A DNA stretch of 64,000 bases from assembly GCA_023133595.1 (NCBI GenBank), contig JAGLWF010000002.1, positions 62,001 to 126,000 on the forward strand, in the 5' to 3' direction. Source of the stretch: Nanobdellota archaeon. GTDB taxonomy: Archaea; Nanobdellota; Nanobdellia; Woesearchaeales; WJKV01. Shown one piece after another: positions 34,494 to 56,481 of the stretch. Below the pieces are notes generated by a model that was not told the origin of the DNA, searched no databases, and saw only the letters and a list, made by a program, of their open reading frames with translations. Each line of letters begins with the position of its first letter. Position 1 is the stretch's first letter. Made by a program: the position numbers and the translations under genes.

Positions 34494-35195
34494 TTATGCG
34501 GTCTTGCTTCTTTCTAATTTCTTAATCTGTTCGGATTCGTGCTTTGGTTCTAGGTGTGGTTTGGGTGCTTCTTTCTGTGCTGGGTTTGGTGCTTCTGTCA
34601 GGACTTTGTCCTGTCCTTTTTTCTTTTCTAGTTTCTTCTCTTCTTCTTTATCTGTTAGGTCTTCTTGTTTCTCTTTCTTCTCTTCGTCCTTGTTTGCCAG
34701 CTCTTCTAGTTTCTCTGTCTTTTTCACAGGAATCGAAGATTCCTGGGACACAGAAGAGCTTTGCTCTTCTCGTGCTTCGCCTTTCTTTGCTTTCTCTGCT
34801 TTTTCTTCTTTTCTCGCGCCAAGAGCTTTCTCTAGTTTTCCTCTCAGGCCAGGTGCTTTCTCAACCTTGCTTTTTGGTGTGATTGTCTTGAACTCAACAC
34901 CTTCTAGTTCGACTTTTACAGTCTCTTTGTCTTCCAGTGCCTCTTTGATAGCTGTGACCTTGACATGGTGAGGCGGATTTTTTATACCACGTTCCCACAA
35001 TTTCTGGTTTAGTTTAGGACCTACCTTTACATTTGGAAGATCCACTTTCATATGTTTTGCAATAAAGCTCTTTAGACCTGTGACTGCTTTCTTTGCTCTT
35101 CTGTATTTTGGCGACTTAAGCCACTCACTTCTAAGCGGAACATTGTAAACACGTTCAAGTTTCTTTTCAGGTGCTTTTTTCTTTGCCATCTTCAT
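34494..35195 (-). CDS. rpl31e: Ribosomal protein eL31 with long charged tail
   Basis: A 233-residue protein. Residues about 10-100 are eL31 (ERVYNVPLRSEWLKSPKYRR, LNQKLWERGIKNPP). The family usually has 80-95 residues; the extra 130 are Lys/Glu/Ala-rich and probably disordered. Within the tail lies a palindromic coding insert (34723-34778) also present in eS19. The ATG overlaps the eL39 stop by four bases; an in-frame ATG two codons later is also possible. It is part of the eS19-eL39-eL31 operon. Confidence 0.92.
   Translation of the reverse strand: MKMAKKKAPEKKLERVYNVPLRSEWLKSPKYRRAKKAVTGLKSFIAKHMKVDLPNVKVGPKLNQKLWERGIKNPPHHVKVTAIKEALEDKETVKVELEGVEFKTITPKSKVEKAPGLRGKLEKALGARKEEKAEKAKKGEAREEQSSSVSQESSIPVKKTEKLEELANKDEEKKEKQEDLTDKEEEKKLEKKKGQDKVLTEAPNPAQKEAPKPHLEPKHESEQIKKLERSKTA
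34723..34778 (-). repeat. Palindromic in-frame insert in eL31 tail
   Basis: A 56-base unit made of two hairpins, GGAATC-GAA-GATTCC and AGAAGAGC-TTT-GCTCTTCT, joined by TGGGACAC. It encodes EAREEQSSSVSQESSIPVK on the minus strand. The same unit, with an extra 54 bases, is found in the tail of eS19 at 35473-35582. Confidence 0.85.
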
Positions 35196-35365
35196 GCCTT
35201 CATCTTGGTCCTGCGCCAGCTTCTCTTTGAAGTTGTAAGCCTAGCAGGATGTAATCGTCTGTTCATGCTATATTTTCTAAGGACTGCCCAGAACGGAGCC
35301 CATCTGGTTCTCCTTCCACGCTTTATGATCCTTTTCTTTCTTGACGGATGGTTGTATCGTGCCAT
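35192..35365 (-). CDS. rpl39e: Ribosomal protein eL39
   Basis: A 57-residue basic protein. RTRWAPFWAVLRKYSMNRRL then KRSWRRTKMK is the eL39 pattern (Pro/Ala-Trp-Ala core and RWRRTKLK-like end). I use the ATG at 35365, one base after the eS19 stop; a longer in-frame reading lacks support. Its end overlaps eL31 by four bases. It lies in the exit-tunnel wall of the large subunit. Confidence 0.9.
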   Translation of the reverse strand: MARYNHPSRKKRIIKRGRRTRWAPFWAVLRKYSMNRRLHPARLTTSKRSWRRTKMKA

Positions 35366-35366
35366 T

Positions 35367-36101
35367 TTATTCTTTTTTCTCCTCAGCCTTAACTTCTGCC
35401 TTGACAACAGGCTTTATCGCTGATTCTTCTACTGGTTTTGCTATAGGCATTGTCACAGGCTTTAATTTTGATTTCACAGGAATCGAAGATTCCTGGGACA
35501 CAACAAAATCCTTTGGATTTTGTGTGCTAAAAATTCTTTTGGAATTTTTATGCACAGAAGAGCTTTGCTCTTCTCGTGCTTCAACCTTTAGTTCTGGTTT
35601 TAGTTCAGTTAATATTTTTGGCTTTTCTGGTGCTTTTGGTTTTTCTTCCACAAGTTTTTTGATTTTTAGTTGTGGTGCTACCTGTCTTGCTGCATTGTCC
35701 ATCAATTGCTTTCCTTTGCCTGTGATCTGTCTTCCTCTCTTGATTGCTTTTGCTTCAAGATCAACAAGACCTGCGCTCTGCAATTGCTGCAGAATCTTTC
35801 TGATAATAGAACCAGACGCTTTAATAAAATGTTCAGGTCTTCTGTTTTTTGCTCTGTACCTCCGAGCACCGAACTTTGTCCTCAGCTTTGCAGTGCCTAT
35901 AGGTCCTTTAATGTAAATTGCTCTCAGGATAGCAGCTGCCCTTACATGCCACCAATCATTCCGCATTGGAACTTTCTCTTTTCCAGGGGATGTCTTGACA
36001 AAGACTGCCCATTCTGGTGCTTTAATCACTGGAATTTTCTTTAGCTCTCCAGCTGCTTTATCGATAAGTGCGTTTGCATTTGCATCAAATACTGTTACCA
36101 T
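35367..36101 (-). CDS. rps19e: Ribosomal protein eS19 with long tail
   Basis: A 244-residue protein. Residues 1-145 are eS19 (PEWAVFVKTSPGKEKVPMRN, DWWHVRAAAILRAIY, and the ITGKGKQLMDNAA end). The remaining 100 residues are a charged, Pro-rich tail absent from most homologues, carrying an in-frame palindromic insert. It is first in the minus-strand operon with eL39 and eL31. The promoter lies near 36180, inside an AT-rich stretch. Confidence 0.93.
   Translation of the reverse strand: MVTVFDANANALIDKAAGELKKIPVIKAPEWAVFVKTSPGKEKVPMRNDWWHVRAAAILRAIYIKGPIGTAKLRTKFGARRYRAKNRRPEHFIKASGSIIRKILQQLQSAGLVDLEAKAIKRGRQITGKGKQLMDNAARQVAPQLKIKKLVEEKPKAPEKPKILTELKPELKVEAREEQSSSVHKNSKRIFSTQNPKDFVVSQESSIPVKSKLKPVTMPIAKPVEESAIKPVVKAEVKAEEKKE
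35473..35582 (-). repeat. Palindromic in-frame insert in eS19 tail, long version
   Basis: 110 bases: the same two hairpins as in eL31 with a 54-base (18-codon) in-frame addition between them. The addition holds two more hairpins, CAAAATCC-TTT-GGATTTTG and AAAAATTC-TTTTG-GAATTTTT. The four consecutive short-loop hairpins keep the reading frame open. Confidence 0.85.
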
Positions 36102-56016: not shown

Positions 56017-56481
56017 ATGATTGAACTTAAACTTGTGATAGGAACAAAATCTGGAAAATCATATCAGAAAGAATTGAAGAGTCCAGAGGCAGATGTCCTG
56101 TTCGATAAGAAAATAAGAGATAAGATCAGCGGAGATGCGATTGGATTTCCAGGATACGAATTCGAGATAACAGGCGGATCTGACAAGTCTGGTTTTCCTA
56201 TGAGAAGGGATGTTGCAACCGGCCACAGAAAAAAGATTTTCACAACTAGTTCTCACGGAGTATGGATCCCGCAGAAAGGTAAGAAATTAAGAAAGACAGT
56301 TGCAGGAAACATGGTGCATGAGAATACTGCACAGATCAATCTCAAGATTTTGAAGGAAGGCAAAGCACCTCTGGCGCCAGTTGAAGCACGAGAAGAGAAA
56401 AAAGCAAAAGAGAAAACAGAAGCAAAAGCAGAAGAAAAGAAAGAAGCAAAAGAAGCAGCACCTGCAGGAGCAAGTGCATAA
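56017..56481 (+). CDS. rps6e: Ribosomal protein eS6 with charged tail
   Basis: A 154-residue protein. GDAIGFPGYEFEITGGSDKS, GFPMRRDV and KKLRKTVAGNMVHENTAQIN are the eS6 core. The C-terminal 35 residues are Lys/Glu/Ala-rich. The tail starts with EAREE, and the first 15 coding bases, GAAGCACGAGAAGAG, are identical to the start of the palindromic inserts in the eL31 and eS19 tails. A TATA box (CCTTTATAAAT, about 55984-55994) gives a leaderless start. In many archaea rps6e is next to the aIF2-gamma gene; here tnpB lies between. Confidence 0.93.
   Translation: MIELKLVIGTKSGKSYQKELKSPEADVLFDKKIRDKISGDAIGFPGYEFEITGGSDKSGFPMRRDVATGHRKKIFTTSSHGVWIPQKGKKLRKTVAGNMVHENTAQINLKILKEGKAPLAPVEAREEKKAKEKTEAKAEEKKEAKEAAPAGASA

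Follow-up and report, generated by a model that had tools for sequence, protein, structure and literature searches.

A probable family of short two-hairpin insertion elements in genes and intergenic DNA of a DPANN archaeal order

To our knowledge, palindromic elements residing in coding sequence have been described mainly in Rickettsia and Wolbachia. A first-pass annotation of a 64-kb stretch of archaeal DNA (hereafter the window, meaning the whole stretch analysed) had proposed that chains of short hairpins lie in frame in the C-terminal tails of two ribosomal proteins, eL31 and eS19. An archaeal family of this kind allows a direct question, namely, how essential genes can take in a selfish hairpin and stay intact. 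The chains are real. The unit common to both genes comprises 57 nt (GAAGCACGAGAAGAGCAAAGCTCTTCTGTGTCCCAGGAATCTTCGATTCCTGTGAAA) and forms two perfect 8-bp stems with 3-nt loops, while the eS19 gene holds an extra 54 nt with two further hairpins, located between the two hairpins of the unit. The features are as follows, with hairpin sequences given on the coding strand.

34494..35195, minus strand: ribosomal protein eL31 gene (Pfam Ribosomal_L31e, E=2.7e-12, residues 30-89), with a two-hairpin element in its C-terminal tail
34719..34778, minus strand: two-hairpin element of eL31 (60-nt match to covariance model R1, 90.2 bits), encoding EAREEQSSSVSQESSIPVKK
34752..34770, minus strand: hairpin A of the eL31 element, AGAAGAGC-AAA-GCTCTTCT, perfect 8-bp stem
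34727..34745, minus strand: hairpin B of the eL31 element, CAGGAATC-TTC-GATTCCTG, perfect 8-bp stem
35367..36101, minus strand: ribosomal protein eS19 gene (Pfam Ribosomal_S19e, E=3e-43, residues 3-142), with a four-hairpin chain in its C-terminal tail
35469..35582, minus strand: four-hairpin chain of eS19, a 60-nt unit split by 54 nt (R1 matches 35469-35530 and 35543-35582)
35556..35574, minus strand: hairpin A of the eS19 chain, with the same sequence as its eL31 counterpart
35502..35555, minus strand: extra 54 nt (18 codons) of eS19 with two further hairpins, as delimited by the eL31/eS19 alignment
35528..35550, minus strand: extra hairpin of eS19, TAAAAATTC-CAAAA-GAATTTTTA, 9-bp stem and 5-nt loop
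35503..35523, minus strand: extra hairpin of eS19, ACAAAATCC-AAA-GGATTTTGT, 9-bp stem and 3-nt loop
35477..35495, minus strand: hairpin B of the eS19 chain, with the same sequence as its eL31 counterpart

The eL31 and eS19 copies, about 750 nt apart, are identical in alignment over the shared 57 nt. Read in frame, the window elements yield the peptides EAREEQSSSVSQESSIPVK and EAREEQSSSVHKNSKRIFSTQNPKDFVVSQESSIPVK, and the eL31 copy the stretch EEQSSSVSQESSIPVK. Such hairpins exceed chance expectation: the window contains 10 perfect 8-bp stems with 3-nt loops, compared with a mean of 2.3 and a maximum of 6 in 60 dinucleotide shuffles, and two tandem stem pairs, compared with none in 60 such shuffles. 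The eS19 hairpin at 35503..35523 recurs in a different genome, where it belongs to a chain lying between genes (L075).

The unit is also found elsewhere in the source genome. A 111-nt query matches two further contigs, C37 and C38 (E=9e-10 each), and the covariance model R1, built from five copies and yielding only rough E-values, finds strong matches on C12 (eL31, and eS19 in two parts), C37, C38, and C17. The C38 copy constitutes the tail of an ScpB protein (KKKARKERSSFVSQESSIPVKKK), and the C37 copy lies inside a small membrane protein (EARKERSSFVSQESSIPVKKKEK). The copy on C17 is diverged (EQSPFVSQEPEVLV); its second stem is altered on both sides and still pairs perfectly, and it stands closer to the copies of another lineage, the metagenome-assembled genome (MAG) G043. 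This diverged copy is probably older than the others. All five copies of the source genome are on the coding strand, in open reading frames, and in one shared frame.

The first-pass annotation had further linked the unit to the tail of eS6, for which the following stretch was considered.

56383..56401, plus strand: part of the eS6 tail that has GAAGCACGAGAAGAG in common with the unit (19 nt, 95% identity, E=0.07 in the source genome, no hairpin)

The shared letters are literally there, as a 15-nt match; given its E-value and the missing hairpin, we rejected the stretch as a relic or copy of the element in this genome. The eS6 gene of G043 does hold a full copy.

The family is spread across one archaeal order. 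A specific pattern, RCACGNRAA-N11-TTYNGTGTCCYNRRAA, searched across 257 Gb of GTDB contigs, matches 53 stretches; 2.9 million viral contigs yield none. Nearly all of the 53 stretches are labelled as Woesearchaeota, Nanoarchaeota, or Nanoarchaeia MAGs, with the exception of one Aenigmatarchaeota contig, one Omnitrophica contig, and the G043 bin, labelled Aminicenantes. That bin, AB_1215_Bin_51 (Candidatus Aminicenantes bacterium; L122 and other JAFCCF01 contigs), encodes archaeal eS1, eS6, eS24, and Spt5. The Omnitrophica-labelled contig (L160, MHFY01000096.1) bears a perfect copy at 1618-1677 with flanks CGCTC/GAGCG, and represents either a misbinned contig or wider spread. Outside the source genome's own family, strong R1 copies occur elsewhere in its order, most of all in G043 (14 copies at E<=0.001) and also in G012. 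Across 281 genomes of the class, 20 have an R1 match at E<=1e-6, 15 of which, the source genome included, belong to its own order. At the looser threshold of E<=1, 71 of 99 genomes have a match, which was not accepted as family membership because hairpin chains of other kinds are also picked up by a two-hairpin model; we relied on the pattern and the E<=1e-6 matches, in relatives that are MAGs of varying quality. Identity among the four recent copies of the source genome is 95.8%, that within G043 95.1%, and that between the two genomes 81.8%, so that the expansions in the two are separate.

The copies share a layout of constant ends and variable stems. The unit, CACG-hairpin-GTGTCC-hairpin-TGA, measures about 50-60 nt and is extended into chains of up to about 110 nt; its consensus reads RAAACACG-stem A-GTG-TCCY-stem B-NTGA, in which CAC pairs with GTG around a bulged G and TC pairs with GA. 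The feet (CACG-stem-GTG, followed by TCC-stem-TGA or GGA) and the linker are constant, the stems covary, and the loops are free. Among pattern matches, which were chosen regardless of pairing, 97.6% of cells at the free pairs of stem A are paired versus 75.2% in shuffles (maximum 82%), and stem B reaches at least 7 bp in 76% of copies versus 29% with halves swapped. Longer chains alternate as (CAC..GTG)(TCC..GGA)(CAC..GTG), for example in L130 and L156, and in modified form in eS19. At the C-terminus of an aspartokinase (L252 1501-1580, G237:C38), a further hairpin is nested within the loop of hairpin A, an element-in-element arrangement like that of eS19, and similar nesting is seen in L245 and L254. 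In L138, L161, and L167 (genomes RS_12_52 and RS_10_27), the element is enclosed by the longer inverted repeat GTTCATAAAGT...ACTTTATGAAC, which may mark where a larger mobile element ends.

Roughly 20 copies lie within genes, all in frame 0 and on the sense strand. Stops usually occupy only one or two of the element's six frames, and frame 0 has the highest hydrophilicity (GRAVY about -1.0 to -1.3) together with the lowest content of Cys/Trp/Phe/Leu/Ile/Met. Its peptide, E(T/A)RKEQSSFVSQKPxVSVKP, adds about 20 residues, mostly to disordered or flexible tails. Hosts, identified by Pfam or clear sequence, comprise eL31, eS19, and ScpB in the source genome; uL22, eS24, eS1, eS6, Spt5, FtsY, and an eL14-like protein (called on a sub-threshold KOW match) in G043, where the element encodes SSFVSQKPEVSVK; and eS1, TBP, topoisomerase VI B, and a cupredoxin-like protein in G012. 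Thus, eS1 holds the element in two lineages. Elsewhere, the hosts are MsrB (with the element before the SelR domain), a pilin-like N-terminus, the aspartokinase C-terminus, and a methyltransferase; in all hosts except the methyltransferase, the elements lie outside recognised domains.

Some tRNA-like genes carry comparable structures. In two genomes of one genus, G237 and G037 (L253 and L239, 1501 to ~1554, minus strand), a double hairpin occupies the T-loop (GGTTCRAA-[element]-TCCGGG) of a tRNA-Glu-like (TTC anticodon) and a tRNA-Tyr-like gene, neither of which ARAGORN reported at these two loci; the element could be a T-loop intron, or the tRNA could be dead. In another order of the same class, L214 (~1480-1590) has a similar hairpin pair in the apparent anticodon-loop intron of a tRNA-Arg-like gene.

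The methyltransferase provides evidence of insertion. In G237 (L204), this protein, fused to a kinase-like domain, has 36 extra in-frame codons (MSETQSVSESQKPSVSDDARKLKLPTHAQNRRGGFD) immediately before TIIFNPPY, corresponding to a 108-nt hairpin chain set directly before the NPPY motif and flanked by the 7-nt direct repeat TGTCAAA. Its counterpart in G037 (IPKQKFDTIIFNPPY) has nothing between (IPKQKFD-TIIFNPPY), and the region is otherwise collinear. As read from the two sequences, the pair represents an exact empty site, indicating insertion rather than ancestry; it is the only such site. A second attempt, with L252, found no orthologous region in G037, and the C37 host protein has no orthologues in 99 relatives and hence no empty site. 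The comparison of tails with those of relatives, suggested at the outset as a check, was drawn for eS19, because a motif scan did not recover the eL31 tails of relatives: the eS19 tails of 16 relatives, including G001 of the same family, are without a 7-bp hairpin, whereas the tail in the window has four.

We favour, with a probability of roughly 80%, a family of short, non-autonomous, inserted two-hairpin elements that multiplied separately in many genomes of one DPANN (Woesearchaeota-like) order. Such elements would settle both between and within genes, and the genic survivors would be only those insertions with lengths divisible by three and a hydrophilic peptide in the sense frame, so that the host protein, mostly in a disordered tail, would gain length without being broken. 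One of the copies in the window would have entered the eL31 tail, and the copy in the eS19 tail would itself have received another two-hairpin unit; the two copies may be donor and recipient of each other. The element peptide is presumably translated, and probably tolerated rather than selected. Spread would proceed by a transposition-like reaction on a folded single strand, with an enzyme acting in trans. A single-strand mechanism is favoured by the conserved unpaired feet and the want of a constant target duplication. A bolder reading, which we regard as possible though less likely than not, is that this order possesses its own hairpin-chain mobile system, moved by a not-yet-recognised recombination enzyme, and that the disordered tails of core proteins, ribosomal ones among them, and even tRNA T-loops have been used repeatedly and independently as landing sites, thereby generating new protein tails.

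A narrower form of the preferred reading, which we regard as possible if rather doubtful, makes the elements miniature relatives of IS200/IS605 or REP sequences, moved single-stranded and in trans by a Y1 (HUH) tyrosine transposase such as RAYT. The layout resembles HUH ends in its hairpin pair, conserved unpaired feet, and inconsistent target duplications, and copy number correlates weakly with the number of Y1_Tnp genes (rho 0.26, p=0.009), which are present in 34 of 99 relatives. However, the foot is not GTAG, Y1_Tnp is absent from both the source genome and G043, and 15 of the 27 element-rich genomes are without it. No element stands beside the Y1 gene at 27 of 28 Y1 loci, so the notion that the elements are IS200/IS605 transposon ends is not supported. 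The sole association is an element inside the start of a broken Y1 (IS200-type) gene (L098 2296-2355, G076:C35:43195-43254), with the 7-nt TGATATT on both sides. Over 65 copies, flanking direct repeats of at least 7 nt were seen once against 0.55 expected, not above chance. The three cases of 7-nt flanking repeats (L204, L118, and L098) are suggestive only, and flanking inverted or direct repeats, only slightly above control, were rejected as a general insertion signature.

It is improbable that the hairpins are instead RNA signals for processing, termination, or stability that spread by duplication, with the coding copies being read-through captures. About three quarters of pattern matches are indeed intergenic, many copies lie near gene ends, and some are inside longer inverted repeats. 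Yet no T run was seen after the stems, copies also occur at N-termini and within a domain, and an Rfam scan of the window returned no family at gathering score; moreover, this account would explain a possible use and not dispersal.

Far less credible is the proposal that the peptide is a functional short linear motif, whose codons happen to produce the DNA hairpins. Genic copies, often situated in the tails of ribosomal proteins, do keep frame and peptide highly constant, but the same hairpins stand in intergenic DNA without a reading frame, by which this proposal is largely refuted. In addition, hairpin A comes in two subtypes in the source genome, separated by a G-C to A-T exchange that preserves the stem and alters both residues (Glu to Lys, Ser to Phe), and the host proteins, among them ribosomal proteins, MsrB, a signal-peptide protein, and a methyltransferase core, are mutually unrelated. 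Finally, a single local event copying the unit from one to the other of eL31 and eS19, which the proximity and identity of the two copies might suggest, had been named at the outset as what would refute dispersal. As the whole explanation it is itself refuted by the near-identical in-frame copies on C37 and C38, the diverged one on C17, and the many in other genomes.

A seemingly unrelated archaeal family behaves like the coding palindromes of Rickettsia and Wolbachia, with subtypes expanding separately by lineage and one exact empty site. Hairpin insertion offers one way in which ribosomal proteins of DPANN archaea could acquire long disordered tails. As for the presumed novelty of such elements in these archaea, the open-access papers searched, outside of which most subscription journals lie, contain no description of the family.

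Among known systems, MITEs, including those of archaea such as Sulfolobus and Haloquadratum, are likewise small, non-autonomous, multicopy, and insertional; the present elements have no terminal inverted repeats of a known transposon, and a target duplication of the fixed length expected of classical (DDE) MITEs seems not to be consistent over 65 copies, the 7-nt cases of L204, L118, and L098 notwithstanding. MITE-gene fusions are known (PMC10969869). Borg tandem repeats create new disordered regions in archaeal proteins (PMC9879509); they are tandem direct repeats of extrachromosomal elements, in contrast to the dispersed palindromic units in binned genomes described here. REP elements are short hairpins with constant feet (GTAG or CGTC) and variable stems, arranged in pairs or arrays and mostly intergenic, the GTAG type being tied to RAYT (PMC3733652). 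The archaeal elements share the short hairpins, constant feet, and variable stems of REPs and REPtrons, as well as their grouping in pairs and arrays and their largely intergenic placement, but lack the GTAG foot and an adjacent RAYT/Y1 gene, and are frequently found as in-frame coding copies.

The closest parallel remains the palindromic elements of Rickettsia (RPE), 100-150 bp repeats that enter reading frames non-destructively at surface-exposed places (PMC3767692) and provide many in-frame fusions (PMC10969869). The resemblance proposed at first sight is borne out: as with RPE and the Wolbachia elements (WPE), palindromes are dispersed, here over an archaeal order, both in intergenic DNA and in frame within unrelated genes, and an orthologue without the insert exists (G237 versus G037). 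Unlike the bacterial RPE, the archaeal family often resides in ribosomal protein tails and in chains, has a shorter unit of two hairpins, and has feet of CACG and GTGTCC/TGA in place of the CGTC tag reported for R. conorii (PMC3733652). The family works like RPE yet, judging by its unit length and end tag, is no member.
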